A stretch of DNA of 64,000 nt. Source: Brachyhypopomus gauderio (taxonomy: Eukaryota; Chordata; Actinopteri; Gymnotiformes; Hypopomidae). Under the pieces are notes generated by a model. The model saw only the letters and a list, made by a program, of their open reading frames with translations. It made no database searches and was not told the origin of the DNA. Numbering within the stretch: position 1 is the stretch's first letter; every line of letters begins with the position of its first letter. The stretch lies in assembly GCF_052324685.1 (NCBI RefSeq), contig NC_135225.1:8356915-8420914 (forward strand). Reading direction: 5' to 3'. Below, in pieces: positions 7,851-58,047 of this stretch. Made by a program: the position numbers and the translations under genes.

Positions 7851-8096
7851 CAGTATGTTCATGTGCAGTATGTTCCTGTTCAGTATGTTCCTGTTCAGAA
7901 TGTTCATGTTCAGAACGTTCATGTTCAGAATGTTCATGTTCAGTATGTTCCTGTTCAGAATGTTCATGTTCAGAACGTTCATGTTCAGAACGTTCATGTT
8001 CAGAATGTTCATGTTTAGAACGTTCATGTTCAGTATGTTCATTTTCAGTAGGTTCCTGTTCAGAATGTTCATGTTCAGAATGTCCTTTTTTCAGTG
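7851..8096. repeat. 15-bp minisatellite (catgttcagaaygtt)n
   Basis: About 16 tandem copies of a 15-bp unit of the form c(a/c)tgttcag(a/t)a(c/t)gtt, diverging at the right edge. Because 15 is divisible by three and the unit has no stop, several frames stay open (Met-Phe, Cys-Ser and Val-His-Val-Gln patterns, and Asn-Met-Asn on the minus strand). These frames are by-products. The tract starts about 50 bp after the dead Tc1 element. Confidence 0.93.
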
Positions 8097-12266: not shown

Positions 12267-21448
<9,182 letters not shown>

Positions 21449-21601: not shown

Positions 21602-22460
21602 TGCCATATTTCCATTCAGTGAGTATACAATTGATATTTATATGTCACATTAGCACAGTGTGGACATCGTAGTGAAATGACAAGTGTGTTTTACTCTGAC
21701 ATTGTCCTTTATTGTGCCACATTTGTTTTTTATTATGGGTAAGGAGAGCGTTCTCAGTTTGCCTGTTATGTGTTATGGTACATCTAAAAGGGAATATTCC
21801 TCATTTTAAGTTAAAGTGAAGAGAATCATTTACAGACTGACCTCTTGCTCTATTTATTAGCTATATTTTAACTTGCCATGTAAAACATTAACCATTTTGA
21901 AGATGGATAAGAAAATATTTGCTGTAAATATTTGGTCCCTAATGGCATGTCTTGTCACGGTCTGGCCTAGTCTGGCTCTGACACCGAGATTTGATGGGGA
22001 CTGTTTTGCAAGGTGACTATCAAAACAACACGACAGGATAAGTTAACTCTGATTTTCAAGTACTTAAACTTCAAACACTTGAAAAAATATAAATACTTGA
22101 AAAAGTTGAGAATGTGTGATGAGAAGGAGAATGTGTGATGAAAACTAGCATGGGTAAGAAAAGACTAGACATGCTCCACGTGCATTTACTTGTTGCTTCT
22201 CATAATTTATGTCGCAAAAAAAAAAAAAACAGCTCTAACAATGTGCTGTAGTGACATCTAGTGGTGGAACTGAAACTGTTAGAGTAGTAAGCTGTGATTA
22301 CTAGTACTTGTTTTTAATTGCTAAAGACTGTGAAAACTGAAAAGAAAGATAAAAGATTAGTGCTAAAAAACAACGGATTATGAAATATTGTAATTTTCTT
22401 TTTATTTCATTCCAGACCCACAAGTTCATGTTTTATCACTGGGCGCAAAAGTACCACTAA

Positions 22461-25705: not shown

Positions 25706-28700
25706 ATGGCTCTGGAGGTTGACGGAGCCTTATCAGACACCTTCTCTCTGATGGAGCACAAGGACTATGGGAGGTGGAGACGAAGGATCCCAGAGTCGCT
25801 TCACTCTGGCCACACAAGACCTCTCACACCTGGTGACGGATTAAATCCACCACATGACCAGGATGTCAAAGACTCAGACAGTGACAGGAGTGTTATCAAG
25901 AAGACTGTTACCATGGCACCCACCTCTAGGTATATGACAGGAAGAACCTATTGTGCCAGAAAGCCAATGATCACTGCTGAGCACAAGATTTCAATCTTGA
26001 AGAATCCTCTCACACAAGAATGTTCAGAAACAGTAAGTTTTCAGTGCCTGGAGATTCGATTATTGAATGTTATTGAATGACTTTGTCTAATATGCTAATT
26101 ATAGTATGTGGGACTAAGTATTTGCATCTTCATTGTGGTGGCTGATATGTGTTAGAAAGTATATTCATGCTGCCATATGTGTAATTCTATATAAAAAAAA
26201 ATATAGGTTAGTTCTAAAAGTCATGGTTTGGTCTAATAGCCTGTGTATTATAAAGTAACAAATATAATATAAAAATGTATTGTTATAATCAGGATAATTT
26301 CCTTTGCCCAAACCCTGTTTTGTTTATCCACAGATTCACATGAGCAGCGTGGCAAGTTACCAAGAAAGTGAAGGGTTACTGTTTATGCAGTCAGATGGGT
26401 ACACTGCAGAAAACACCAATATTTCCCAGAGCTCTTTGCCTTCAGTATCCAAAGAAGACTGTTATGCCTCCTTGAGTATATCAGACCTCAAGAGCTCTGT
26501 GCCTTCAGCTTGTGTATATGAAGGAAGGAGCCTCTCCAGCCCCTCTTTAGATGACCTAAACCTTACAGTGCCATTAAGCCCCAAGTTGACTTCCACCCAG
26601 AAGATGTTCTCTAATTCTTGTATTACCCAAACCTATTCCTCTCCTAAGACAAAAACAGGAGCAAGTAAGCAGGAAGCAGACTCTTTTCTTAACACTCACT
26701 CTTCACTGAGCTACAGTAAAGGCTACTCATCTGCAATGAAAAACATGTCCCCCTATCAAGCCAATTACTGGGCCTGTGTTATCCCAAGCTCCTTACCACC
26801 CTCCCCAGACCGCAAGTCCCCCAGCTGGAACCCAGATAAGGAGTATCAAGAACTCCTGGATTATACGTACCCTCTCAGGCCTGAGTGCAGGCCGCTTACG
26901 CACACAGATCCACTTTTGCAAGACTCTGGCGTTGAGTTAGACCAGTTTCACAGCTCTTCTAGCCTTTCATGTTTGGAGAAATCCATGATGAAAATAAGGC
27001 AAGATAGAGATTGTCTAGCTGCAAGTCAGAGGTTATCTGAATGGCAAAGTCTGAATCTGAGAAAACTCTCGCCTTCCAAGTCCTCAGATGGCAGGATATC
27101 TAGTAATCTGTATTCTTCACTGGACCAGGTGGGTTTATCAGTGGAGAGTTTGGATTTTGAGGGGAAACAGAACTTTCACTACAGGAAATTTGGCATATTT
27201 TGCTCCTCGAAGTCTGCTCCAACCTTCATTAGATCCACATATATCTTACCCCGTCATGGGTCACTTGGCGACTTAGATGAGGAGTTCCTTCGGTTGCCAG
27301 AACAATTAAAGGAACTTCAAGTTCTGTCTCACGAGCTGAATGACATTACAGCAGAAATAAGTCAGCCAGTCACGACAAGCTGGGAGAGGGAGAGTGCCTC
27401 TCTAAGATCATCATCAGCACAGAGACACAAATACACACCAACTGTCACTGTGCAAGAAAAAAGTGGTGAGGAGGATCATGGTTCAGTGTCTGAAGTCCCT
27501 CTTCAAAGTAAGACATTCTCAGAGCAGGTGAAAGGACTGGGTGCTAGACTGCAAATGATCAGCAGTCAGGTAAACAGAGGCAATCTGAGGGATGTGGAGG
27601 CCATTGTGGATCAACTGAGTGGAACATCAACGGCGTCTCAGAGCAAGACGGGCTCAGAACAGAGTGCAGAAGATAACAAGAAATCCCTCTTGCAGCACAT
27701 TCAAGTGAGTGATTGAAGGTTTTGTGTAAATTTGAATTTGAATGCTACTGACATGAACACTAATACAACTTTTACCTTTTTTAATAGGTATTTTGCTCAA
27801 ACCTAGAAGAACTGATTAAGTGGTTGTACAAGGTGGTGGAGAAGATGGAGAGTCTTTCCCCTCCTTCAGTAAACATGGAGAGTGTTAAAGCTTCTCTTGC
27901 TGACTATAAGGTCTGGACTGAAAACAACATATAAGTCACTAAATGTGATGATAAATGTGATGATAACATTATCTACCATGAGTGAAATATATGATGAATA
28001 TATAATTGTATTATTTATGGCCAATATTGCATTTGCTAAATAAATGTCTATGGTCCGTATAATAGATCATATCAAATAATCCAGGTGCTACTGGTGTTTA
28101 AACCAGTTTTATTTTATTTATTATATAATTATTACACAATTATTGTCATATTGTCATTCAGTACCAGTCATAATATTGCTCACTGACTGAAAATATGTAA
28201 ACAATGTACTGTAAATTGTGAAAGCTGATATATATATACGTGAACTGATTTCTAAAACAATTTCCCAGAATTTTCAGAAGGAAGTTCAAGCTCACCGGCC
28301 TCTAACAGCCTCTGTGCTTCAGAGTGGAGAGATGCTACTGTGTTGTATGAATTCTGCATCTCCCTGTGAGTTGTTGTGATCACCTTGATAACCACGTGCA
28401 TTAATATTCTACAATAATCTCTGCACACAGTCCTTTTGTGTAATTTTTAATGTGTATTTAGCTTTTTGTGTATTATTTTGCTAAGCTTGTATTTACTAAC
28501 ATTTTATTTTTGATAAATTAATCTATTAGGCATTAGTATGCTTATTGAATTTTCTCTTTCCTATCAGTCCTTATAAATATTTAGACTTCAGCATATGCAT
28601 CTCTATGTCTGTTCTGTTTGACTGCACACTGTGTAATTTCAGCATGGCTCTGCACAGCGGTCACTTACTCAAGTGTGTGTCAACCTTAAAAGAGATTACT

Positions 28701-29418
28701 TCTCTTAATATGAGGCAAACAGGAAAAACTACTTTCCCTGATATAATATAGAGGTGTGACTGAAGCATCTGACTGAAATAAATTTCAGACATTGATACAT
28801 CTGTAATTTATCTCTTGAATACATAATTAACTGGATAACTGGATAACCAACTGTGAACTGGATAACTATAATACATTTTGTATAGGCTATTTTCACTAAG
28901 CTGTCTTTTAAATCCTCAAGGAGACCACAGTGGCTTGTTTTTCCCTTTGGTCTGGTGCACACGGTTACAACATTGCAGTTTGAAACATGCAGTAGCATGT
29001 AATCCAATACCCAGTCTTGTCTGACAGAAACAGGAAACAATAGGAGAATAAGGCCAGTCGTCACTCTGAGGCCAGTGTTTTGTTTTGGTCTGCTCCCTGA
29101 TCATTTTATATCAGTGTCAGTCTGTAGCAGTTTTACACAACCACTCCATAACTCACAAAACGTAAATGCATTTCTAGCACTCCACAAAGAAATATGAGTG
29201 ATAGCATGTATCTTCTTTAAATACCAACTTGTGTTTTTATATACTTTCTAATGAACTGTTTACCTATGGGCAACTCAGTTCTTCAGGAGACGTTGATGTT
29301 GATAGAGAGGCAGTCCAGTGCCCTTGAGGCTCATTCAGAACACCTCTTCTCCTCAATCCTCTCAGCCATGGACAGCCTCACTGAACCAAGTATACAGGGT
29401 GACACAGGTAAACAATAG
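25706..29418 (+). CDS. cep68: Centrosomal protein of 68 kDa (CEP68-like), spliced
   Basis: CEP68 is a centrosome-linker protein that works with rootletin and CEP215 to hold the two centrosomes together in interphase. Exons read: 25706-26032, 26334-27704, 27788-27910, 28269-28365, 29279-29407, joining in one frame. If the last donor is not used, a stop follows at 29416-29418, giving 685 aa. The second exon encodes 457 residues of Ser-rich, low-complexity sequence; the later exons form a predicted helical, spectrin-repeat-like C-terminus (C-S-N-L-E-E-L-I-K-W-L-Y-K-V-V-E-K-M and onward). Identity rests on this architecture and on position between slc1a4 and rab1a, as in other vertebrates. The leader has a short out-of-frame upstream ATG (about 25675). 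Odd points: the third exon's donor is AAG|GTCTGG, and the 29279 acceptor has a weak pyrimidine tract. No AATAAA follows 29418 before the repeat array, so a further exon (see 47577-47701) is likely. Confidence 0.8.
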
Positions 29419-29582
29419 TGGCCAACCTATTGGACAGGCCTGAGTTTAAAATATTGTGTTTAACACTTCATTGCTGTTTGTGTTTCTATTTGAATATGAT
29501 GCATTGCTCATTGTAGAATGCCCTCGTGTTCACATATTTCAGAAAATGCAGTGTACACATTTAAAATTGCATTTGCTTTTTA

Positions 29583-29761
29583 GGGTTCACACACGTAGTG
29601 TGGGAAACCTATTGTAATTGTCGGGTTTTTTCTTCTTATTATTAGGGTTCACACACGTAGTGTGGGAAACCTATTGTAATTGCTGAGATTTTTCTTATTA
29701 GGGTTCACACACGTAGTGTGGGAAACCTATTGTAATTGTCGGGTTTTTTCTTTCTTATTAT
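29583..29761 (+). repeat. Three head-only copies of the array element
   Basis: Three consecutive ~55-63 bp copies of the element's 5' end (ttagggttcacacacgtagt, then gtgggaaacctattg) precede the first full unit. Each ends in a T-rich/TTATTA junction and lacks the rest of the unit. Confidence 0.9.
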
Positions 29762-31730
29762 TAGGGTTCACACACGTAGTGTGGGAAACCTATTGTTATT
29801 GTTAGGTTTTTTCTTCTTTCTTATTATTATTATTATTTTTCTCCGCATAAAACGCATACTGCAGCCTAAACCGTAAGGCCCAGGGAGACCAAACTTGGTA
29901 GACTGGTGTAGTCTGTTTGCGGGACCGTGCTAAAGTACAGAGACCCACATTGGCCTGATGGTGGCGCTATAGCGCAGCATTTTGCGTTTTGGTCCATATC
30001 TCCCACCCCGTAGGTCCTAGAAACAAAATTCCACTTCAGGTGCATTCCTTGGCTCCAGACAAACAAAAAAGCCTCAAGAACCATTAAGCTCCGCCTACTT
30101 AGATTTTTGCTAATTTGCATAATATGCAAAACCTACTTTTTTATACTAGTCCCTGGTTTTTCATCTGATCACCACAATCTTGGTGTCAAAATATTCACAA
30201 GAATCTCATTATCAAGGAACATCAACAAAACTGTGACATTGGTATACAGTCTGGTTGTCACATGTCAATCAATAGCTCTGAGGCGTGGCCAAATTGACTT
30301 CAGCAGCTATATCTCAGCAATGCTTTGACCTATCTTTATGAAAATTTATCAGTTGTTAGGGCACATGACTCAGAGGTCACAGGTCAAAGCTGGCCACGAT
30401 TGTCCAATAGGGGGCGCTATAACATGGGGAAATTTGTTTCTCAGAAACCATTAGTCACATCAAGCCCAAACTTTACAGGCATCATCAGGGGCCCAAGTGG
30501 TATCAAGGCACACAATGATGACCTCATCACTCAAAAAACATGGCCGCCATGAGCCAATTAATTTTTATTTGAATTAATTGGCCATTTGACAGACTTACCA
30601 TTGGCCAATCAACATGAAACCTCATCACTGTGCATATCCCAGGACTCTGTGTCATACTGTGCAGTGTTGAAACATTTGGCCACTAGGTGGCGCTATTTGT
30701 GAAAATCATGCATAACTCCTCCAAATTATCACTTAGGAACATGCAACTTGTTTCTTTTTATACCTTGCAGTAGACCTGACAACTTTGCAATTACAAGTCC
30801 TATTAAAAAATGCATACTTTTGTCACATTCATCAATTGTTTGAAAATAGCTCTTTAAGAACTAGTCCTTGGAATTTGACCCAATGATGGCAAAAATGGCA
30901 TAGGCATAATCTGTAGACACTGTAGTTAACTAAATATGGAAAAAATGTTGCATTTATATTTTTCTGATTGGTCAATTTTTCCATTATATCCTTCTGGCCA
31001 TGCCATAAATGACCTTTATTGCTATAACTCATAAACCATGTAAGTGATCAACTCCCAATTTGAAAGGCTTTTATACACTGAGGTCCTTGTGAGGTAGGCC
31101 ACGTTTGGTTCACATTGGCCTGTCGGGGGCGCTACAGTACCTAAAAACCTAAGAAATCATAAAAACTCATGCAGCAATGCTCTTATGCAGAATACAGACA
31201 AGTAATGGGGCTTGTATGATTCAGATCAATGAGGTCTATAACATTGCAATTACATCTCATAACAAAAAGTGCACTGCCTGACCAGAAATGAACCTTTTAT
31301 TTCACCAAAATGTCCTATTACATTACTGAGATTAATGAGATATCAGTATGGTAGTACTTGGGCTCCATCTAGTGGCCAAACACCAGAACTGACTGAAAAC
31401 TATTGCTCACATGAAACACCACACAAACACACACAAAGCTGATCTCAGCATGTGATTTAGTTCTGTGATCTGAATCATTTTGCCAATACACATTATTTTG
31501 ATCCTTTTGGGCCTTTAGTGCCTCAGTTGAATTGAATGTTTTGTCACATTGATTTATTTGTGCATTTTTTCCACTCAAACAGCTTCTATTCACTTTTGGG
31601 TCTAAAGGACATATTGGGCTTCTTTTTGCCTGTTGAGGCCAAGAGGCCAATTTGTTAGTCTAAAAGACCTTTTGGGCTTTTTTGCCTTTTTTTGTGTGAA
31701 CCCGCCAATCGCCGCTTGCGGCTATATTTA
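29762..31730 (+). repeat. Array unit A (type 1, divergent subtype)
   Basis: Full unit with head. Near its start it has the type-1 block (ggtgtagtctgtttgcggga). It shares several unit-wide variants only with unit G, e.g. 'aaggaacatcaacaaaactg' in place of 'aaagttgcttaaaaacattt', and a 3' end with 'gggcttttttgccttttttt'. Confidence 0.9.
30680..30693 (+). promoter_or_regulatory. CTCF-like core motif, representative of the array
   Basis: CCACTAGGTGGCGC fits the CTCF core consensus CCASYAGRKGGCRS at all 14 positions. The same perfect core recurs at 32650, 36357, 38619, 40475, 42679 and 44582, with one-base variants at 34504 and 46431. All are on the plus strand. Binding is not shown by sequence alone. 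Confidence 0.55.
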
Positions 31731-33648
31731 TTAGGGTTCACACACGTAGTGTGGGAAACCTATTGTAATTGCTGAGATTTTTCTTATTATTATTATTATT
31801 ATTATTTTTCCCCCTGTAAAACGCATACTGCAGCCTAAACCGTAAGGCCCAGAAAGACCAAACTTGCCAGCAAGGTGCAGCAGGTGTGCAATGAGAGAAA
31901 TAGAGACAGGGACCCACATTGGCCTGATGGTGGCGCTATAGCGCACCATTTTGCGTTTTGGTCCATATCTCCCAAACCGTAGGGCCTAGAAACAAAATTC
32001 CACTTCTGAGGGATTCCTTGGCTCAAGCCAAACAAAAAAGCCTCAAGAACCATTAAGCTCCGCCTACTTAGATTTTTTGCTAATTTGCATAATATGCAAA
32101 ACCTACTTTTTTGTACTAGTCCCTGGTTTTTCATCCGATCACCACAACCTTGGTGTCAAAATATTCAGGAGAATCTCATTATCAAAGTTGCTTAAAAACA
32201 TTTTGAGATTTGCATACAACCTGGTTGTCACATGTCAATCAATAGCTCCGAGGCGTGGCCAAATTTACTTAAACAGCCATATCTCAGCAACGCTTTGACC
32301 GATCTTCATAAAATTTTAACAGTTGTTAGGGCACATGACTCCGAGGTCATAGGTCAAAGCTGGCCACAATTGTCCAATAGGGGGCGCTATAACATGGGAA
32401 AAACTGTTTCTCAGAAACCATTAGTCACATCAAGCCAAAACTTTACAAGCATCATCAGGGGCCCAAGTGATATCAAGACACCCAATGATGACATCATCAC
32501 TCAAAAAACATGGCCGCCATGAGCCAATTAATTTTTAATTGAATTAATTGGCCATTTGACAGACTTACCATTGGCCAAACAACATGAAACCTCACCACTG
32601 TGCATATCTCAGGACTATGTGTCATGCTGTGCAGTTTTAAAACATTTGGCCACTAGGTGGCGCTATTTGTGAAAATCATGCATAACTCCTCCAAATTTTC
32701 ACTTAGGAACATGCAACTTGTTTCTTTTTATTCCTTGCAGTAGACCTGACAACTTTGCAATTACAAGTCCTATTAAAAAATGCATACTTTTGTCACATTC
32801 ATCTATTGTTTGAAAATAGCTATTTACAAACTAGTCATAGGAATTTGATCCAATTATGGAAAAATTGCTATGAGCATAATCAGTAGACTCTGTAGGTAAA
32901 AACTGAGTAAAAAAATGTTGAATTTTTATTTATCTGATTGGTCCATTTTCCCATTATATCATTGTGGCCATGCCATATATGACCTATATTGCTATAACTC
33001 ATAAACTATGTATGCAATCAACTCCCAATTTGAAAGGCTTTTATATCCTGAAGTCCTTGTGAGGTATGCCAAGTTTGGTTCAAATTGGCCTGTCGGGGGC
33101 GCTACAGTACCCAAAAACCTAAGAAAACATAAAAACTCATGCTGCAATCTTGTTATGCAGAATACAGACAATTAATTGGTCTTGTATGATCCAGATCAAT
33201 AAGTTCTATAACATTGCAATTACATCTTATAACAAAAAGTGCACTGCCTGACCGGAAATGAACCTTTTAATTCACCAAAATGTCATTGCATTACTGAGAT
33301 TAATGAGATATCAGTATGGTAGTACTTGGGCTCCATCTAGTGGCCATACATTGAAACGAACTGAAAACTATTGCTCACATGAAACACCACACAAAAACAC
33401 ACACAAAGCTGATCTCAGCATGTGATTTAGTTCTGTGATTTGAATCATTTTGCCAATACACATTATTTTGATCCTTTTGGGCCTTTAGTGCCCCAATTGA
33501 ACATTTTTTTGCACATTGATTTATTTGTGCATTTTTTCCACTCAAACAGCTTCTTTTGGGTCTAAAGGACCTATTGGGTCTATTGCCTATTGAAGCCAAG
33601 TGGCCTATTCGTGTGTGAACCCGCCAATTGCCGCTTGCGGCTATATTT
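31731..33648 (+). repeat. Array unit B (type 2)
   Basis: Full unit with head. Type-2 block: ccagcaaggtgcagcaggtg followed by caatgagagaaatagagaca at about 31868-31910. It joins unit C directly through an ATT run without the gggttcacac head. Confidence 0.9.
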
Positions 33649-35503
33649 ATTATTATTATTTTTCTCCGCATAAAACGCATACTGCAGCCTAGACCGTAAG
33701 GCCCAGAGACACCAAACTTGGCAGAATGGTGTAGTCTCTTTGCGAGACCGTGCCAAAGCACAGAGACCCACATTGGCCTGATGGTGGCGCTATAGCGCAC
33801 CATTTTGCGTTTAGGTCCATATCTCCCAAACCGTAGGGCCTAGAAACAAAATTCCACTTCTGATGGATTCCTTGGCTCAAGCCAAACAAAAAAGCCTCAA
33901 GAACCATTAAGCTCCGCCTACTTAGATTTTTTGCTAATTTGCATAATATGCAAAACCTACTTTTTTGTACTAGTCCCTGGTTTTTCATCCGATCACCACA
34001 ACCTTGGTGTCAAAATATTCAGGAGAATCTCATTATCAAAGTTGCTTAAAAACATTTTGAGATTTGCATACAGTCTGGTTGTCACATGTCAATCAATAGC
34101 TCCGAGGCGTGGCCAAATTTACTTAAACAGCCATATCTCAGCAACGCTTTGACCGATCTTCATAAAATTTTAACAGTTGTTAGGGCACATGACTCCGAGG
34201 TCATAGGTCAAAGCTGGCCACGATTGTCCAATAGGGGGCGCTATAACATGGGAAAAACTGTATCTCAGAAACCGTTAGTCACATCAAGCCAAAACTTTAC
34301 AGGCATCATCAGGGGCCCAAGTGATATCAAGACACACAATGATGCCATCATCACTCAAAAAACATGGCCGCCATGAGCCAATTAATTTTTATTTGAATTA
34401 ATTGGCCATTTGACAGACTTACCATTGGCCAAACAACATGAAACCTTACCACTGTGCATATCTCAGGACTATGTGTCATGCTGTGCAGTTTTAAAACATT
34501 TGGCCACAAGGTGGCGCTATTTGTGAAAATCATGCATAACTCCTCCAAATTTTCACTTAGGAACATGCAACTTGTTTCTTTTTATTCCTTGCAGTAGACC
34601 TGACAAATTTGCAATTACAAGTCCTATTAAAAAATGCATACTTTTGTCACATTCATCTATTGTTTGAAAATAGCTTTTTACAAACTAGTCATAGGAATTT
34701 GATCCAATTATGGAAAAATTGCTATGAGCATAATCAGTAGACTCTGTAGGTAAAAACTGAGTAAAAAAATGTTGGATTTTTATTTTTCTGATTGGTCCAT
34801 TTTCCCATTATATCATTGTGGCCATGCCATATATGACCTATATTGCTATAACTCATAAACCATGTATGCAATCAATTCCCAATTTGAAAGGCTTTTATAT
34901 CCTGAAGTCCTTGTGAGGTACGCCAAGTTTGGTCCAAATTGGCCTGTCGGGGGCGCTACAGTACCCAAAAACCTAAGAAAACATAAAAACTCATGCTGCA
35001 ATCTTGTTATGCAGAATACAGACAAGTAATTGGTCTTGTATTGTCCAGATCAATAAGTTCTATAACATTGCAATTGCATCTTATAACAAAAAGTGCACTG
35101 CCTGACCAGAAATGAACCTTTTAATTCACCAAAATGTCATATTGCATTACTGAGATTAATGAGATATCAGTATGGTAGTACTTGGGCTCCATCTAGTGGC
35201 CAAACATCGGAACGGACTGAAAACTATTTCTCACATGAAATACCACACAAACACACACACAAAGCTGATCTCAGCATGTGATTTAGTTCTGTGATTTGAA
35301 TCATTTTGCCAATACACATTATTTTGATCCTTTTGGGCCTTTAGTGCCCCAATTGAACATTTTTTTGCACATTGATTTATTTGTGCATTTTTTCCACTCA
35401 AACAGCTTCTTTTGGGTCTAAAGGACCTATTGGGTCTATTGCCTATTGAAGCCAAGTGGCCTATTCGTGTGTGAACCCGCCAATTGCCGCTTGCGGCTAT
35501 ATT
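33649..35503 (+). repeat. Array unit C (type 1)
   Basis: Headless unit with the type-1 block (ggtgtagtctctttgcgaga). One base differs from the perfect CTCF-like core at 34504-34517. Confidence 0.9.
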
Positions 35504-37640
35504 TATTATTATTTTTCCCCCTGTAAAACGCATACTGCAGCCTAGACCGTAAGGCCCAGAAAGACCAAACTTGCCAGCAAGGTGCAGCAGGTGTGCAATG
35601 AGAGAAATAGAGACAGGGACCCACATTGGCCTGATGGTGGCGCTATAGCGCACCATTTTGCGTTTTGGTCCATATCTCCCAAACCGTAGGGCCTAGAAAC
35701 AAAATTCCACTTCTGATGGATTCCTTGGGTCAAGGCAAATAAAAAATAAATTTGAACCATTAAGCTCCGCCTACTTAGATTTTTTGCTAATTTGCATAAT
35801 ATGCAAAACCTACTTTTTTATACTAGTCCCTGGTTTTTTATCGGATCACCACAAGCTTGGTGTCAAAATATTCAGGAGAGTCTCATTATCAAAGTTGCTT
35901 AAAAACATTTTGAGATTTGCATACAGTTTGGTTGTCACATGTCAATCAATAGCTCCAAGGCGTGGCCAAATTTACTTAAACAGCCATATCTCAGCAACGC
36001 TTTGACCGATCTTCATAAAATTTTAACCGTTGTTAGGGCACATGACTACGAGGTCATACGTCAAAGCTGGCCACGATTGTCCAATAGGGGGCGCTATAAC
36101 ATGGGAAAAACTGTATCTCAGAAACCATAAGTCACATCAAGCCAAAACTTTACAGGCATCATCAGGGGCCCAAGTGATATCAAGACACACAATGATGACA
36201 TCATCACTCAAAAAACATGGCCGCCATGAGCCAATTAATTTTTATTTGAATTAATTGGCCATTTGACAGACTTACCATTGGCCAAACAACATGAAACCTC
36301 ACCACTGTGCATATCCCAGGACTATGTGTCATGCTGTGCAGTTTTAAAACATTTGGCCACTAGGTGGCGCTATTTGTGAAAATCATGCATAACTCCTCCA
36401 AATTTTCACTTAGGAACATGCAACTTGTTTCTTTTTATTCCTTGCAGTAGACCTGACAACTTTGCAATTACAAGTCCTATTAAAAAATGCATACTTTTGT
36501 CACATTCATCTATTGTTTGAAAATAGCTATTTACAAACTAGTCATAGGAATTTGATCCAATTATGGAAAAATTGCTATGAGCATAATCAGTAGACTCTGT
36601 AGGTAAAAACTGATTAAAAAAATGTTCGATTTTTATTTATCTGATTGGTCCATTTTCCCATTATATCATTGTGGCCATGCCATATATGACCTATATTGCT
36701 ATAACTCATAAACCATGTATGCAATCAACTCCCAATTTGAAAGGCTTTTATATCCTGAAGTCCTTGTGAGGTATGCCAAGTTTGGTTCAAATAGGCCGGT
36801 CGAGGGCGCTACAGTACCCAAAAACCTAAGAAAACATAAAAACTCATGCTGCAATCTTGTTATGCAGAATACAGACAAGTAATTGGTCTTGTATGATCCA
36901 GATCAATAAGTTCTATAACATTGCAATTGCATCTTATAACAAAAAGTGCACTGCCTGACCAGAAATGAACCTTTTAATTCACCAAAATGTCATATTGCAT
37001 TACTGAGATTAATGAGATATCAGTATGGTAGTACTTGGGATCCATCTAGTGGCCAAACATCGGAACGAACTGAAAACTATTTCTCACATGAAACACCACA
37101 CAAACACACACAAAGCTGATCTCAGCATGTGATTTAGTTCTGTGATCTGAATCATTTTGCCAATACACATTATTTTGATCCTTTTCGGCCTTTAGTGCCT
37201 CAACTGAATCTTTTTTTTTTACATAAAGTACACAGCCTGACCAGAAACGAACCTTTTAATTCAACAAAATATCCTATTTCATTACTGACATTAATGAGAT
37301 ATCAGTATGGTAGTACTTGGCCTCCATCTAGTGGCCATATTCTGACTGAAAACTATTGCTCAAATGAAATACCACACAAACACACACAAAGCTGATCTCA
37401 GCATGTAATTTAGTTCTGTGATCTGAATTATTTTGCCAATGCACATTATTTTGATCCTTTTAGCCCTTTAGTGCCCCAATTGAACCTTTTTTTGCACATT
37501 GATTTATTTGTGCATTTTTTCCACTCAAACAGCTTCTTTTTCACATTTAGGGTCTAAAGGACCTTTTGGGCCTCTGCCTATTGAGGCCAAGAAGCTTATT
37601 TGTGTGTGAACCCGCCAATTGCCGCTTGCGGCTATATTTA
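35504..37640 (+). repeat. Array unit D (type 2, with internal 3' duplication)
   Basis: Headless type-2 unit, longer than its neighbours because a ~280-bp 3' segment is present twice (starting near 36941 and 37219, each with 'gcctgaccagaaa' then a 'ctagtggcca' block). Confidence 0.9.
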
Positions 37641-39620
37641 TTAGGGTTCACACACGTAGTGTGGGAAACCTATTGTAATTGCTGAGATTTTTCTTATTAT
37701 TAGGGTTCACACACACAGTGTGGGAAACCTATTGTTATTGTCGGGTTTTTTCTTTCTTTCTTTCTTATTATTATTTTTCTACTGATAAAACGCATACTGC
37801 AGCCTAGACCGTAAGGCCCAGGGAGACCAAACTTGGCAGGATGGTGTAGTCTCTTTGCGAGACCGTGCTAAAGCACAGAGACCCACATTGGCCTGATGGT
37901 GGCGCTATAGCGCACCATTTTGCGTTTTGGTCCATATCTCCCAAACCGTAGGGCCTAGAAACAAAATTCCACTTCTGATGGATTCCTTGGCTCAAGACAA
38001 ACAAAAAAGCCTCAAGAACCATTAAGCTCCGCCTACTTAGATTTTTTGCTAATTTGCATAATATGCAAAACCTACTTTTTTATACTAGTCCCTGGTTTTT
38101 TATCGGATCACCACAACCTTGGTGTCAAAATATTCAGGAGAATCTCATTATCAAAGTTGCTTAAAAACATTTTGAGATTTGCATATAGTCTGGCTGTCAC
38201 ATGTCAATCAATAGCTCCGAGGCGTGGCCAAATTTACTTAAACAGCCATATCTCAGCAACGCTTTGACCGATCTTCATAAAATTTTAACAGTTGTTGGGG
38301 CACATGACTCCGAGGTCACAGGTCAAAGCTGGCCACGATTGTCCAATAGGGGGCGCTATAACATGGGAAAAACTGTTTCTCAGAAACCATTAGTCACATC
38401 AAGCCAAAACTTTACAGGCATCATCAGGGGCCCAAGTGATATCAAGACACACAATGATGACATCATGACTCAAAAAACATGGCCGCCATGAGCCAATTAA
38501 TTTTTATTTGAAATAATTGGCCATTTGACAGACTTACCATTGGCCAAACAACATGAAACCTCACCACTGTGCATATCTCAGGATTATGTGTCATGCTGTG
38601 CAGTTTTAAAACATATGGCCACTAGGTGGCGCTATTTGTGAAAATCATGCATAACTCCTCCAAATTTTCACTTAGGAACATGCAACTTGTTTCTTTTTAT
38701 TCCTTGCAGTAGACCTGACAACTTTGCTATTACAAGTCCTATTAAAAAATGCATACTTTTGTCACATTCATCTATTGTTTGAAAATAGCTATTTACAAAC
38801 TAGTCATAGGAATTTGATCCAATTATGGAAAAATTGCTATGAGCATAATCAGTAGACTCTGTAGGTAAAAACTGATTTAAAAAATGTTGGATTTTTATTT
38901 ATCTGATTGGTCCATTTTCCCATTATATCATTGTGGCCATGCCATATATGACCTATATTGCTATAACTCATAAACCATGTATGTAATCAACTCCCAATTT
39001 AAAAGGCTTTTTTATCCTGAAGTCCTTGTGAGGTACGCCAAGTTTGGTTCAAATTGGCCTGTCGGGGGCGCTACAGTACCCAAAAACCTAAGAAAACATA
39101 AAAACTCATGCTGCAATCTTGTTATGCAGAATACAGACAAGTAATTGGTCTTGTATGATCCAGATCAATAAGTTCAATAACATTGCAATTGCATCTTATA
39201 ACAAAAAGTGCACTGCCTGACCAGAAATGAACCTTTTAATTCACCAAAATGTCATATTGCATTACTGAGATTAATGAGATATCAGTATGGTAGTACTTGG
39301 GCTCCATCTAGTGGCCAAACATCGGAACGGACTGAAAACTATTTCTCACATGAAATACCACACAAACACACACACAAAGCTGATCTCAGCATGTGATTTA
39401 GTTCTGTGATTTGAATCATTTTGCCAATACAAATTATTTTGATCCTTTTGGGCCTTTAGTGCCCCAATTGAACATTTTTTTGCACATTGATTTATTTGTG
39501 CATTTTTTCCACTCAAACAGCTTCTTTTGGGTCTAAAGGACCTATTGGGTCTATTGCCTATTGAAGCCAAGTTGCCTATTCGTGTGTGAACCCGCCAATT
39601 GCCGCTTGCGGCTATATTTA
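37641..39620 (+). repeat. Array unit E (type 1)
   Basis: Begins with one extra head-only copy (37641-37702), then a full head with acacacacagtg in place of acacacgtagtg. Type-1 block present. Confidence 0.9.
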
Positions 39621-41760
39621 TTATTATTATTTTTCCCCCTGTAAAACGCATACTGCAGCCTAAACCGTAAGGCCCAGAAAGACCAAACTTGCCAGCAAGG
39701 TGCAGCAGGTGTGCAATGAGAGAAATAGAGACAGGGACCCACATTGGCCTGATGGTGGCGCTATAGCGCACCATTTTGCGTTTTGGCCCATATCTCCCAA
39801 ACCGTAGGGCCTAGAAACAAAATTCCACTTCTGATGGATTCCTTGGCTCAAGCCAAACAAAAAAGCCTCAAGAACCATTAAGCTCCGCCTACTTAGATTT
39901 TTTGCTAATTTGCATAATATGCAAAACCTACTTTTTTATACTAGTCCCTGGTTTTTCATCGGATCACCACAACCTTGGTGTCAAAATATTCAGGAGAATC
40001 TCATTATCAAAGTTGCTTAAAAACATTTTGAGATTTGCATACAGTCTGGTTGTCACATGTCAATCAATAGCTCCAAGGCGTGGCCAAATTTACTTAAACA
40101 GCCATATCTCAGCAACGCTTTGACCGATCTTCATAAAATTTTAACCGTTGTTAGGGCCCATGACTCCGAGGTCATACGTCAAAGCTGGCCACGATTGTCC
40201 AATAGGGGGCGCTATAACATGGGAAAAACTGTATCTCAGAAACCATTAGTCACATCAAGCCAAAACTTTACAGGCATCATCAGGGGCCCAAGTGATATCA
40301 AGACACACAATGATGACATCATCACTCAAAAAACATGGCCGCCATGAGCCAATTAATTTTTATTTGAATTAATTGGCCATTTGACAGACTTACCATTGGC
40401 CAAACAACATGAAACCTCACCACTGTGCATATCCCAGGACTATGTGTCATGCTGTGCAGTTTTAAAACATTTGGCCACTAGGTGGCGCTATTTGTGAAAA
40501 TCATGCATAACTCCTCCAAATTTTCACTTAGGAACAAGCAACTTGTTTCTTTTTATTCCTTGCAGTAAACCTGACAACTTTGCAATTACAAGTCCTATTA
40601 AAAAATGCATACTTTTGTCACATTCATCTATTGTTTGAAAATAGCTCTTTAAGAACTAGTCATAGGAATTTGATCCAATTATGGAAAAATTGCTATGAGC
40701 ATAATCAGTAGACTCTGTAGGTAAAAACTGAGTAAAAAAATGTTGGAGTTTTATTTATCTGATTGGTCCATTTTCCCATTATATCATTGTGACCATGCCA
40801 TATATGACCTATATTGCTATAACTCATAAACCATGTATGCAATCAACTCCCAATTTGAAAGGCTTTTATATCCTGAAGTCCTTGTGAGGTATGCCAAGTT
40901 TGGTTCAAATTGGCCTGTCGGGGGCGCTACAGTACCCAAAAACCTAAGAAAACATAAAAACTCATGCTGCAATCTTGTTATGCAGAATACAGACAAGTAA
41001 TTGGTCTTGTATGATCCAGATCAATAAGTTCTATAACATTGCAAATGCATCTTATAACAAAAAGTGCACTGCCTGACCAGAAATGAACCGTTTAATTCAC
41101 CAAAATGTCATATTGCATTACTGAGATTAATGAGATATTAGTATGGTAGTACTTGGGCTCCATCTAGTGGCCAAACATCGAAACGGACTGAAAACTATTT
41201 CTCACATGAAATACCACACAAACACACACACAAAGCTGATCTCAGCATGTGATTTAGTTCTGTGATCTAAATCATTTTGCCAATACAATTTATTTTGAAC
41301 CTTTTGTGTCTTTACTGCCTCAACTGAATCTTTTTTTTAAAATAAAGTACACTGCCTGACCAGAAATTAACCTTTAAGTCACCAAAATGTCCTATTTCAT
41401 TACTGAGATTAATGAGATATCAGTATGGTAGTACTTGGCCTCCATCTAGTGGCCATATTCCGGAACTGACTGAAAACTATTACATGAAACACCACACAAA
41501 CACACACAAAGCTGATCTCAGCATTGTGATTTAGTTCTGTGATCTGACTCAATTTCCCAATACACATTATTTTGATCCTTTTCGGCCTTTAGTGCCTCAA
41601 CTGAACCTTTTTTTGCACATTGATTTATTTGTGCATTTTTTTCCACTCAAATAGCTTCTTTTCACATTTAGGGTCTAAAGGACCTTTTGGGCCTCTGCCA
41701 ATTGAGGCCAAGAGGCCTATTCGTGTGTGAACCCGCCAATTGCCGCTTGCGGCTATATTT
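39621..41760 (+). repeat. Array unit F (type 2, with internal 3' duplication)
   Basis: Headless type-2 unit with the same kind of ~280-bp 3' duplication as unit D (starting near 41061 and 41346). Confidence 0.9.
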
Positions 41761-43728
41761 AGGGTTCACACACGTAGTGTGGGAAACCTATTGTTATTGT
41801 TAGGTTTTTTCTTCTTTCTTATTATTATTATTATTTTTCTCCGCATAAAACGCATACTGCAGCCTAAACCGTAAGGCGCAGGGAGACCAAACTTGGCAGA
41901 CTGGTGTAGTCTGTTTGCGGGACCGTGCTTAAGTACAGACACCCAAATTGGCCTCATGGTGGCGCTATAGCGCAGCATTTTGCGTTTGGATTCATATCTC
42001 CCACCCCGTAGGTCCTAGACACAAAATTCCACTTCAGGTGCATTCCTTGGCTCCAGACAAACAAAAAAGCCTCAAGAACCATTAAGCTCCGCCTACTTAG
42101 ATTTTTTGCTAATTTGCATAATATGCAAAACCTACTTTTTTATACTAGTCCCTGGTTTTTCATCTGATCACCACAATCTTGGTGTCAAAATATTCACAAG
42201 AATCTCATTATCAAGGAACATCAACAAAACTGTGACATTGGTATACCGTCTGGTTGTCACATGTCAATCAATAGCTCTGAGGCGTGGCCAAATTGACTTC
42301 AGCAGCTATATCTCAGCAATGCTTTGACCTATCTTTATGAAAATTTATCAGTTGTTAGGGCACATGACTTAGAGGTCACAGGTCAAAGCTGGCCACGATT
42401 GTCCAATAGGGGGCGCTATAACATGGGGAAATTTGTTTCTCAGAAACCATTAGTCACATCAAGCCCAAAATTTACAGGCATCATCAGGGGCCCAAGTGGT
42501 ATCAAGGCACACAATGATGACCTCATCACTCAAAAAACATGGCCGCCATGAGCCAATTAATTTTTATTTGAATTAATTGGCCATTTGACAGACTTACCAT
42601 TGGCCAATCAACATGAAACCTCATCACTGTACATATCCCAGGACTATGTGTCATACTGTGCAGTGTTGAAACATTTGGCCACTAGGTGGCGCTATTTGTG
42701 AAAATCATACATAACTCCTCCAAATTTTCACTTAGGAACATGCAACTTGTTTCATTTTATACCTTGCAGTAGACCTGACAACTTTGCTATTACAAGTCCT
42801 ATTAAAAAATGCATACTTTTGTCACATTCATCAATTGTTTGAAAATAGCTCTTTAAGAACTAGTCCTAGGAATTTGATCCAATGATGTCAAAAATGGCAT
42901 AAGCATAATCTGTAGACACTGTAGTTAACTAAATAAGGAAAAAATGTTGCATTTTTATTTGTCTGATTGGTCAATTTTTCCATTATATCCTTCTGGCCAT
43001 GCCATAAATGACCTTTATTGCTATAACTCATAAACCATGTAAGTGATCAACTCCCAATTTGAAAGGCTTTTATAGACTGAGGTCCTTGTGAGGTAGGCCA
43101 AGTTTGGTTCAAATTGGCCTGTCGGAGGCGCTACAGTACCCAAAAACCTGAGAAATCATAAAAACTCACGCAGCAATCTTGTTATGCAGAATACAGACAA
43201 GTAATGGGGCTTGTATGATTCAGATCAATGAGGTCTATAACATTGCAATTACATCTCATAACAAAAAGTGCACTGCCTGACCAGAAATGAACCTTTTAAT
43301 TCACCAAAATGTCATTGCATTACTGAGATTAATGAGATATCAGTATGATAGTACTTGGGCTCCATCTAGTGGCCAAACACCGAAACTGACTGAAAACAAT
43401 TGCTCACATGAAACACCACACAAACGCACACAAAGCTGATCTCAGCATGTGATTTAGTTCTGTGATCTGAATCATTTTGCCAATACACATTATTTTGATC
43501 CTTTTGGGCCTTTAGTGCCTCAGTTGAATTGAATGTTTTGTCACATTGATTTACTTATGCATTTTTTCCACTCAAACAGCTTCTATTCACTTTTGGGTCT
43601 AAAGGACCTACTGGGCTTCTTTTTGCCTATTGAGGCCAAGAGGCAAATTTGTTTGTCTAAAAGACCCTTTGGGCTTTTTTGCCTTTTTTTGTGTGAACCC
43701 GCCAATCGCCGCTTGCGGCTATATTTAT
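41761..43728 (+). repeat. Array unit G (type 1, divergent subtype)
   Basis: Full head; the closest relative of unit A by shared variants throughout its length. Confidence 0.9.
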
Positions 43729-45580
43729 TATTATTATTTTTCCCCCTGTAAAACGCATACTGCAGCCTAGACCGTAAGGCCCAGAAAGACCAAACTTGCC
43801 AGCAAGGTGCAGCAGGTGTGCAATGAGAGAAATAGAGACAGGGACCCACATTGGCCTGATGGTGGCGCTATAGCGCACCATTTTGCGTTTTGGTCCATAT
43901 CTCCCAAACCGTAGGGCCTAGAAACAAAATTCCACTTCTGATGGATTCCTTGGCTCAAGCCAAACAAAAAAGCCTCAAGAACCATTAAGCTCCGCCTACT
44001 TAGATTTTTTGCTAATTTGCATAATATGCAAAACCTACTTTTTTGTACTAGTCCCTGGTTTTTCATCCGATCACCACAACCTTGGTGTCAAAAGATTCAG
44101 AAGAATCTCCTTATCAAAGTTGCTTAAAAACATTTTGAGATTTGCATACAGTCTGGTTGTCACATGTCAATCAATAGCTCCAAGGCGTGGCCAAATTTAC
44201 TTAAACAGCCATATCTCAGCAACGCTTTGACGGATCTTCATAAAATTTTAACAGTTGTTAGGGCACATGACTCCGAGGTCATATGTCAAAGCTGGCCTCG
44301 ATTGTCCAATAGGGGGCGCTATAACATGGGAAAAACTGTATCTCAGAAACCATTAGTCACATCAAGCCAAAACTTTACAGGCATCATCAGGGGCCCAAGT
44401 GATATCAAGACACACAATGATGACATCATCACTCAAAAACCATGGCCGCCATGAGCCAATTAATTTTTATTTGAAATAATTGGCCATTTCACAGACTTAC
44501 CATTGGCCAAACAACATGAAACCTCACCACTGTGCATATCTCAGGACTATGTGTCATGCTGTGCAGTTTTAAAACATATGGCCACTAGGTGGCGCTATTT
44601 GTGAAAATCATGCATAACTCCTCCAAATTTTCACTTACGAACATGCAGCTTGTTTCATTTTATTCCTTGCAGTAGACCTGACAACTTTGCAATTACAAGT
44701 CCTATTAAAAAATGCATACTTTTGTCACATTCATCTATTGTTTGAAAATAGCTATTTACAAACTAGTCATAGGAATTTGATCCAATTATGGAAAAATTGC
44801 TATGATCATAATCAGTAGACTCTGTAGGTAAAAACTGAGTAAAAAAATGTTGGATTTTTATTTTTCTGATTGGTCCATTTTCCCATTATATCATTGTGGC
44901 CATGCCATATATGACCTATATTGCTATAACTCATAAACCATGTATGCAATCAATTCCCAATTTGAAAGGCTTTTATATCCTGAAGTCCTTGTGAGGTACG
45001 CCAAGTTTGGTTCAAATTGGCCTGTCGGGGGCGCTACAGTACCCAAAAACCTAAGAAAACATAAAAACTCGTGCTGCAATCTTGTTATGCAGAATACAGA
45101 CAAGTAATTGGTCTTGTATTGTCCAGATCAATAAGTTCTATAACATTGCAATTGCATCTTATAACAAAAAGTGCACTGCCTGACCAGAAATGAACCTTTT
45201 AATTCACCAAAATGTCATATTGCATTACTGAGATTATTGAGATATCAGTATGGTAGTACTTGGGCTCCATCTAGTGGCCAAACATCGGAACGGACTGAAA
45301 ACTATTTCTCACATGAAATACCACACACACACACAAAGCTGATCTCAGCATGTGATTTAGTTCTGTGATTTGAATCATTTTGCCAATACACATTATTTTG
45401 ATCCTTTTGGGCCTTTAGTGCCCCAATTGAACATTTTTTTGCACATTGATTTATTTGTGCATTTTTTCCACTCAAACAGCTTCTTTTGGGTCTAAAGGAC
45501 CTATTGGGTCTATTGCCTATTGAAGCCAAGTGGCCTATTCGTGTGTGAACCCGCCAATTGCCGCTTGCGGCTATATTTAT
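43729..45580 (+). repeat. Array unit H (type 2)
   Basis: Headless type-2 unit. Confidence 0.9.
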
Positions 45581-47431
45581 TATTATTTTTCTCCGCATAA
45601 AACGCATACTGCAGCCTAGACCGTAAGGCCCAGAGACACCAAACTTGGCAGAATGGTGTAGTCTCCTTGCGAGACCGTGTAAAAGCACAGAGACCCACAT
45701 TGGCCTGATGGTGGCGCTATAGCGCACCATTTTGCGTTTTGGTCCATATCTCCCAAACCGTAGGGCCTAGAAACAAAATTCCACTTCTGATGCATTCCTT
45801 GGCTCAAGCCAAACAAAAAAGCCTCAAGAACCATTAAGCTCCGCCTACTTAGATTTTTTGCTAATTTGCATAATATGTAAAACCTACTTTTTTATACTAG
45901 TCCCTGGTTTTTCATCGGATCACCACAACCTTGGTGTCAAAATATTCAGGAGAATCTCATTATCAAAGTTGCTTAAAAACATTTTGAGATTTGCATACAG
46001 TCTGGTTGTCACATGTCAATCAATAGCTCCAAGGCGTGGCCAAATTTACTTAAACAGCCATATCTCAGCAACGCTTTGACCGATCTTCATAAAATTTTAA
46101 CCGTTGTTAGAGCACATGACTACGAGGTCATACGTCAAAGCTGGCCACGATTGTCCAATAGGGGGCGCTATAACATGGGAAAAACTGTATCTCAGAAACC
46201 ATTAGTCACATCAAGCCAAAACTTTACAGGCATCATCAGGGGCCCAAGTGATATCAAGACACACAATGATGACATCATCACTCAAAAAACATGGCCGCCA
46301 TGAGCCAATTAATTTTTATTTGAATTAATTGGCCATTTGACAAACTTACCATTGGCCAAACAACATCAAACCTCACCACTTTGCATATCTCAGGACTATG
46401 TGTCATGCTGTGCAGTTTTGAAACATTTGGCCACTAGTTGGCGCTATTTGTGAAAATCATGCATAACTCCTCCAAATTTTCACTTAGGAACATGCAACTT
46501 GTTTCTTTTTATTCCTTGCAGTAGACCTGACAACTTTGCAATTACAAGTCCTATTAAAAAATGCATACTTTTGTCACATTCATCAATTGTTTGAAAATAG
46601 CTCTTTAAGAACTAGTCATAGGAATTTGATCCAATTATGGCAAAATTGCTATGAGCATAATCAATAGACTCTGTAGGTAAAAAGTGATTAAAAAAATTTT
46701 GGATTTTTATTTTTCTGATTGGTCCATTTTCCCATTATATCATTGTGGCCATGCCATATATGACCTATATTGCTATAACTCATAAACCATGTATGCAATC
46801 AACTCCCAATTTGAAAGGCTTTTATATCCTGAAGTCCTTGTGAGGCATGCCAAGTTTGGTTCAAATTGGCCTGTCGGGGGCGCTACAGTACCCAAAAACC
46901 TAAGAAAACATAAAAACTTATGCTGCAATCTTGTTATGCAGAATACAGACAAGTAATTGGTCTTGTATGATCCAGATCAATAAGTTCTATAACATTGCAA
47001 TTGCATCTTATAACAAAAAGTGCACTGCCTGACCAGAAATGAACCTTTTAATTCACCAAAATGTCATATTGCATTACTGAGATTAATGAGATATCAGTAT
47101 GGTAGTACTTGGGCTCCATCTAGTGGCCATACATTGAAACGAACTGAAAACTATTGCTCACATGAAACACCACACAAAAACACACACAAAGCTGATCTCA
47201 GCATGTGATTTAGTTCTGTGATTTGAATCATTTTGCCAATACACATTATTTTGATCCTTTTGGGCCTTTAGTGCCCCAATTGAACATTTTTTTGCACATT
47301 GATTTATTTGTGCATTTTTTCCACTCAAACAGCTTCTTTTGGGTCTAAAGGACCTATTGGGTCTATTGCCTATTGAAGCCAAGTGGCCTATTCGTGTGTG
47401 AACCCGCCAATTGCCGCTTGCGGCTATATTT
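45581..47431 (+). repeat. Array unit I (type 1), right edge of array
   Basis: Headless type-1 unit. The array ends in gccgcttgcggctatatttt and then passes into unique sequence. Confidence 0.9.

Positions 47432-49840: not shown

Positions 49841-58047
<8,207 letters not shown>

Follow-up and report, generated by a model that had tools for sequence, protein, structure and literature searches.

What are CTCF-like motifs, repeated nine times on one strand, doing between two convergent genes of the gymnotiform fish Brachyhypopomus gauderio? The motifs lie in a 64,000-nucleotide stretch of assembly GCF_052324685.1 (NC_135225.1, positions 8,356,915 to 8,420,914 of the forward strand; hereafter the window), for which an initial sequence-only reading had proposed a run of co-oriented CTCF sites that could act as an insulator or loop anchor. 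They belong to a tandem array of a transposon-like unit, given on the line below. The explanation we favor, with slightly more than even confidence, is that this is a nine-copy array of a ~1.85-kb HINE whose CTCF sites were kept while the family diverged, and which may now form a CTCF-bound boundary. The initial sequence observation is confirmed and proves stronger than first noted, whereas its overall interpretation is partly supported.

29580..47430, plus strand: whole tandem array, nine head-to-tail Helentron/HINE-like units

The main sites, CCACTAGGTGGCGC, number nine, all on the same strand and recurring every 1,849-2,262 bp. Vertebrate CTCF recognizes their core, CCASYAGRKGGCRS, which seven of the nine match perfectly, while those at 34504 (CCACAAGG) and 46431 (CCACTAGT) carry one mismatch each. 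Every one of the nine coordinates first reported is exact, and the division into seven perfect cores and two variants and the proposed spacing of about 1.85-2.26 kb were recovered as well. With up to one mismatch to the IUPAC core, the window contains 29 sites (28 of them in the array) against a mean of 0.38 and a maximum of 2 in 100 shuffles. The CTCF matrix (JASPAR MA0139.1, 19 bp) finds 46 places in the window at p ≤ 1e-6, 45 of them in the array, where 0.04 would be expected; at p ≤ 1e-5 there are 47 in the array and 3 outside. The sole p ≤ 1e-6 match outside the array (22249-22267, minus strand) is divergent to the main sites. The motifs had been described as same-strand. This holds for the strongest site, which is on the plus strand in nine of nine units, but not for all 45 strong array matches, of which 34 are on the plus and 11 on the minus strand.

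These matches fall into five site types per unit, S1-S4 on the plus strand and S5 on the minus strand. The weaker related sites listed alongside the main motif are real, and every unit has each of them, in some cases with a base altered; that list understated them, since five sites per unit, four plus and one minus, match the CTCF matrix. They are given below for the first unit (U1), with the starts of their equivalents in the others.

30677..30695, plus strand: S3, main site TGGCCACTAGGTGGCGCTA, 27.5 of 30.2 bits, p 7.9e-11 per position; equivalents start at 32647, 34501 (variant), 36354, 38616, 40472, 42676, 44579 and 46428 (variant), the variants scoring 25.9 and 20.9 bits
30401..30419, plus strand: S2, TGTCCAATAGGGGGCGCTA, p 2.6e-8, identical in 9/9 units; equivalents start at 32371, 34225, 36078, 38340, 40196, 42400, 44303 and 46152
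29951..29969, plus strand: S1, TGGCCTGATGGTGGCGCTA, p 9.4e-7; equivalents start at 31920, 33774, 35627, 37889, 39745, 41949 (variant), 43852 and 45701
31116..31134, plus strand: S4, TGGCCTGTCGGGGGCGCTA, p 1.7e-7; equivalents start at 33086, 34940, 36793 (variant), 39055, 40911, 43115 (variant), 45018 and 46867, the two variants at p 1.6e-6 and 1.8e-6
31360..31378, minus strand: S5, TGGCCACTAGATGGAGCCC, p 1.7e-8; equivalents start at 33328, 35184, 37037 (p 8.0e-7) and 37319 (p 2.9e-8), 39299, 41155 and 41437 (p 2.9e-8), 43357, 45262 and 47111

S3 reaches 91% of the maximum matrix score. The second S5 copies are in the fourth and sixth units (U4, at 37319, and U6, at 41437); that of U4 lies within a 276-bp internal duplication, and U6 is of similar length. 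At the level of sequence, the CTCF reading of these sites is well supported.

Because all nine copies duplicate a single sequence, chance was calculated on a single consensus unit. It contains five sites above 16.6 bits (~p 1e-6), the best at 27.5 bits. Among 2,000 dinucleotide shuffles of this unit, none held more than one site (mean 0.0105; best score 22.68), and the same maximum of one was obtained with 2,000 column-permuted matrices (best 20.65 bits); the order-reversed matrix found no site on the consensus unit. As a flank control, one site was present in 2 of 48 overlapping unit-length windows. A chance motif arising from base composition is ruled out by the shuffles and column-permuted matrices, and the comparison of matrix scores with shuffled repeats that had been suggested as a check was passed widely (five sites vs at most one in 2,000 shuffles).

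Strong matches could nevertheless sit in an inert transposon satellite, methylated and unbound in vivo, with co-orientation a by-product of tandem duplication. Head-to-tail duplication yields shared orientation and spacing automatically, two of the nine main sites have already changed, and the CpG ratio of the unit is low (0.39 vs 0.43 outside), as in methylated vertebrate DNA. We regard this account as possible but doubtful; composition fails to explain five strong sites in one unit, and the variation among the units listed here bears on it further.

29849..31728, plus strand: U1, minor subfamily, 97.3% identical to U7
31818..33647, plus strand: U2
33672..35503, plus strand: U3
35525..37638, plus strand: U4, with a 276-bp internal duplication (36939-37493) that doubles the minus-strand site S5
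37787..39618, plus strand: U5
39643..41759, plus strand: U6, 2117 bp, long like U4, with a second minus-strand S5 at 41437
41847..43725, plus strand: U7, minor subfamily
43750..45577, plus strand: U8
45599..47430, plus strand: U9, last unit, 3' end intact

U1 and U7, 12 kb apart, form a distinct subfamily, with 97.3% mutual identity and 89-92% identity to the other units. Positions at which at least two units depart from the consensus are absent from the sites (0/95) and common elsewhere (177/1,736; Fisher 1e-4). The same contrast is rarely reached when five 19-bp blocks are placed at random (P 0.0022), and it persists when only 100-bp flanks are used for comparison (0/95 vs 101/1000, p 1.2e-4) or only G/C positions are counted (0/61 vs 71/654, p 0.0026). 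Changes diagnostic of the subfamilies likewise spare the sites (0/95 vs 98/1,736; Fisher 0.008, block placement P 0.023), and the summed differences within them come to 8 where ~31 are expected (P 0.004 by circular shifts, 0.007 by random blocks). The GGCGC CpG of S1-S4 is retained in 36/36 cells, with no decay to TG/CA. An inert satellite fails to explain either this CpG retention or the complete lack of site positions at which at least two units differ.

Are the five sites independent of one another? S1 and S3 are 727 bp apart and S2 and S4 715 bp apart, and one raw alignment, partly driven by the motifs, sets both pairs in register (motif 30/38 and flanks 346/563 identical). Self-alignment of the consensus scored 485 with an end offset of 719, whereas 150 local shuffles reached at most 426; with the motifs masked, an alignment with the same end scored 424, which at least one of 150 shuffles matched or exceeded. 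When one half of the unit was compared with the other, the score was 421 (345 after masking), and each set of 300 three-base-block shuffles peaked at 206. After masking, the halves align at nearly the same offset, but S2 and S4 are not exactly in register. Other masked segment pairs (the S1 vs S3 regions, S3 vs S4, and the unit end) did not rise above shuffles. The z-scores for consensus 333-693 vs 609-969 are void, as these segments overlap, and one further alignment was the trivial self-match. When windows around the sites were compared, S2-S3 and S2-S4 scored higher than any shuffle and the eight remaining pairs did not; with one motif masked, S2-S4 alone still did. An old internal duplication of ~720 bp is likely, though not certain, and the five sites may descend from three ancestral ones.

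That the boxes recur within this probable duplication would also suit a different origin, in which ATTGGCC....GG.GGCGCTA serves another factor or the replication of the element (e.g., Rep recognition) and merely resembles a CTCF site. The similarity among S1-S4 extends slightly past the CTCF 19-mer, S1 and S4 are without the two core A residues of CCASYAG, and other invariant blocks of the unit are not CTCF sites. Such a box would not be expected to bring S3 to within a tenth of the maximum score over a 19-bp matrix, nor to make a strong match of S5, which is on the opposite strand and has no in-register partner. Structural signals of Helitrons and Helentrons are moreover placed at the ends of the element, not through its body, in the passages of PMC4067079 that describe them. 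We consider this origin improbable.

Several points weigh against the favored explanation. Single-unit changes are equally frequent inside and outside the sites (8/95 vs 116/1,736, p 0.53), the background rate that an inert satellite would show, and because of this there is no sign of selection keeping the sites in the present array. The multi-unit contrast becomes marginal once the comparison is restricted to the seven majority units (0/95 vs 68/1,736, p 0.047), the count of variable columns in the sites is not clearly lower (P 0.0995 by circular shifts, 0.055 by random blocks), and the Fisher tests take neighboring columns as independent. Full retention also characterizes 11 of 40 CpG columns outside the sites, and the longest invariant runs (44 bp at consensus 943-986; 40 bp at 1584-1623) are not CTCF sites. 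Nor do the five sites count as separate events, because S1/S3 and S2/S4 are probably copies made by the internal duplication. The matrix itself is human, with counts entered by hand. Finally, TGCAGT lies upstream of S3 and starts 17 bp before the 19-mer, which gives a gap of 8 under the 9-bp form that we assume for the CTCF upstream motif, against the 5-6 stated in published excerpts. On this spacing no full CTCF site with upstream motif is claimed; that motif is optional in known sites.

The absence of multi-unit departures, taken with the background rate of single-unit change, argues for constraint during the spread of the family and not since the array formed. The sites look constrained while the family spread and its subfamilies diverged, with none detectable afterwards, and this points to the element rather than the present array as the level at which they mattered. 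Neither this pattern of variation nor the ends of the element, described next, figured in the sequence-only reading.

31731..31762, plus strand: 5' terminus of a full-length unit, TTA followed by the 13-bp subterminal inverted repeat (subTIR) GGGTTCACACACG, which forms a hairpin with the following stretch
47393..47430, plus strand: 3' terminus, with subTIR CGTGTGTGAACCC, palindrome GCCGCttGCGGC and end TATATT

What kind of element is it? It begins TTAGGGTTCACACACG... and ends ...GCCGCTTGCGGCTATATT. A full-length start reads TTA-GGGTTCACACACG-TAGTGTGGGAAACC and the end reads CGTGTGTGAACCC-GCCAATT-GCCGCttGCGGC-TATATT, after which unique DNA starts with TTT. The 13-bp subTIR is 3 nt from the 5' end, as in HINEs, whose subTIRs measure 12-15 bp and lie 2-4 nt from that end. 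The 5' hairpin is stable (-9.6 kcal/mol, z -5.1), and the 3' palindrome folds weakly (4-bp stem, z -1.5, 14/200 shuffles equally good). A perfect reverse complement of the subTIR lies 25 nt, and the palindrome 6 nt, from the 3' end used, distances that depend on the end chosen, the exact one being undefined within a T run. The flanks are T-rich, ...TTTGCTTT/TTAGGG at the 5' side and TATATT/TTTAAG at the 3' side (slashes mark the boundaries), and correspond to a single insertion; HINEs insert into T-rich DNA without duplicating the target and are mobilized by an autonomous Rep/Helicase-endonuclease partner that shares their ends. The unit also carries a TTATTATT microsatellite.

Passages of PMC4067079 attribute to DINE-1/HINE elements 13-bp subTIRs, a short inverted repeat inside the 5' subTIR, a 3' palindrome, a microsatellite and a T-rich target, an architecture that the array unit and its flanks resemble. 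In mite HINEs, according to the same passages, the 3' end is preceded by the 3' subTIR at ~38-60 nt and by a 5-10-bp palindrome at 8-35 bp, so the 25 and 6 nt found here are shorter. The present element also differs in forming a nine-copy array of near-complete units and in carrying CTCF-type sites, of which those descriptions in PMC4067079 make no mention. It is likely a non-autonomous Helentron/HINE, with incomplete membership, and may already be catalogued under some name. Other identities were rejected. A canonical Helitron (5' TC, 3' CTRR, insertion between A and T) is ruled out by ends of TTAGGG... and ...CTATATT in T-rich flanks. As for a protein-coding origin, four minus-strand open reading frames (ORFs) of 141-142 amino acids span unit junctions, and the one of these four that was searched has no Pfam domain at E ≤ 0.01. 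As for an RNA gene, comparison of the window with Rfam gave nothing that reached gathering thresholds. Exact-pattern scans for copies of the element gave 0 matches in viral and prokaryotic contig collections, which is uninformative on fish genomes because of what these collections contain.

29580..29829, plus strand: array opening, four tandem 5' ends (TTAGGGTTCACACACGTAGTGTGGGAAACC...), TRF period ~56-63, 4 copies

The layout of the array suggests how it grew. Exact element 5' ends at its opening start at 29580, 29642, 29698 and 29761. The consensus unit is 1,831 bp long, and successive main sites are 1970, 1854, 1853, 2262, 1856, 2204, 1903 and 1849 bp apart. At five of the eight internal junctions the following unit is without its 5' end and is joined via a TATTATTATT-type stretch; the other three retain one or two 5' ends. 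The U4/U5 junction (37638-37787) holds two tandem copies of the element 5' end alone. U4 and U6 cluster in the unit tree. Junction structure, tandem 5' ends and the U1/U7 and U4/U6 groupings fit growth in which the microsatellite underwent unequal exchange or replication slippage and larger segments were duplicated. For tandem Helitrons in plants the review PMC12628747 describes a rolling-circle origin, many of the arrays combining several 5' ends with just one 3' end. That model is no simple fit here because none of the nine units has lost its 3' end.

26304..29418, plus strand: 3' part of the upstream gene, putatively cep68, from ORFs; possible stop at 29416-29418
49844..52169, minus strand: matched rab1a coding exons, found by tblastn with human RAB1A
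30543..30550, plus strand: GCCGCCAT box; also at 32513, 34367, 36220, 38482, 40338, 42542, 44445 and 46294

The array had been placed between cep68 and rab1a. The second neighbor is borne out, with the C-terminal coding end of rab1a at 49844 on the minus strand, so that it converges with the upstream gene; the first name is one that we assume from the expected gene order, and the main ORF of this putative cep68 has no Pfam match. An ORF at 12267 has an SDF-family match and presumably belongs to slc1a4. The upstream gene has its possible stop ~160 bp short of the array, and 36 bp beyond the array comes an AATAAA (47466), so the element may have inserted into a 3' untranslated region or into the short gap between the convergent genes. 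Alternatively, a splice donor just before the possible stop could make the array intronic. Each unit has a single GCCGCCAT box, beginning 140 bp ahead of S3, and the rest of the window has none; we take it to resemble the core of a YY1 site, short of the full YY1 consensus. Elsewhere in the window, 7851-8083 is a 15-bp minisatellite (CAGAATGTTCATGTT, 15.5 copies).

Could the host itself have adopted the array as an insulator specific to this locus, with selection keeping the sites? A position between convergent genes (the upstream one presumably cep68) and strongest sites that are all co-oriented would suit such a role. So would the resemblance to DXZ4, whose CTCF sites share one polarity in the portions of PMC6985041 that treat it. 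Against it, single-unit mutations are not reduced in the sites, and their conservation lies between subfamilies and is probably older than the array. We think adoption by the host very unlikely.

CTCF macrosatellites such as DXZ4, which has a unit of ~3 kb, are known mainly from mammals. As in these repeats, a co-oriented CTCF motif is present in each unit of a large tandem repeat, here in nine of nine with the main site always on the plus strand. Sections of PMC6985041 describe the X-linked DXZ4/Dxz4, FIRRE and ICCE as large tandem repeats whose CTCF sites share a polarity and are paired with YY1 sites, and report for Dxz4 that inversion swaps contacts. CTCF binding and the boundary are proven for DXZ4, whereas the fish array is known from its motifs. 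Its unit differs too, at 1.85 kb with transposon ends, five sites and an imperfect YY1-like box. The D4Z4 macrosatellite (3.3-kb unit) and the 1q23.3 tRNA tandem repeat (7.3-kb) are likewise tandem repeats tied to CTCF and to insulator or boundary roles, but they are human and, in the published extracts, are not presented as rolling-circle transposons.

Transposon families that distribute CTCF sites are also documented, by the relevant parts of PMC9341505 and PMC7786948, in zebrafish (SINE3-1a and HATN9_DR) and mouse (SINE B2); the former source counts 1,016 and 647 CTCF-bound sites by ATAC footprint for the two zebrafish families. As far as these extracts go, they are SINEs and, by name, hAT-type elements rather than rolling-circle ones, and families with many sites rather than a tandem array. 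The closest functional analogues of the array are the DXZ4-type macrosatellites together with the zebrafish CTCF sites borne by transposable elements. Both phenomena are already known. In the open-licence literature, no paper titled on a Helitron-class element carrying CTCF sites was found among the matches listed, and none joining Helentron and CTCF or concerning teleost tandem-repeat or transposon satellites with CTCF motifs.

How might the array act? By the convergent rule, plus-oriented sites arrest cohesin arriving from the right; for the plus-oriented array this predicts anchored contacts that reach towards rab1a and past it. In the scenario we favor, a HINE inserted in T-rich DNA between the two convergent genes and would have expanded head to tail, its TTATTATT microsatellite accounting for part of the growth and larger duplication for the rest. 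The family carries about five CTCF-type sites, one near consensus, which would have stayed intact through subfamily divergence, and at this locus they recur about every 1.9 kb with the strongest all pointing towards rab1a. Where the array is unmethylated CTCF would bind at least the main site, S3, probably strongly, and the co-oriented cluster could arrest cohesin coming from the rab1a side and form a boundary or stripe anchor. An insulator or loop-anchor role is plausible on these grounds. The original benefit was probably to the transposon, through open or insulated chromatin, and not to the locus.

A broader proposal, which we advance only tentatively and think rather unlikely, is that a rolling-circle family keeps five CTCF sites as a trait of its own, so that insertions bring an insulator and tandem amplification builds a DXZ4-like, co-oriented array. 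A lack of multi-unit differences in the sites followed by ordinary decay in single copies is the trace expected of selection at the level of the element. If true, fish genomes would contain ready-made boundary elements of variable copy number that are made by transposons and not selected by the host. The locus illustrates how a mobile element might become a boundary, the transposon supplying the sites and tandem growth the array, and it makes testable the question of whether transposons gain by carrying CTCF sites.

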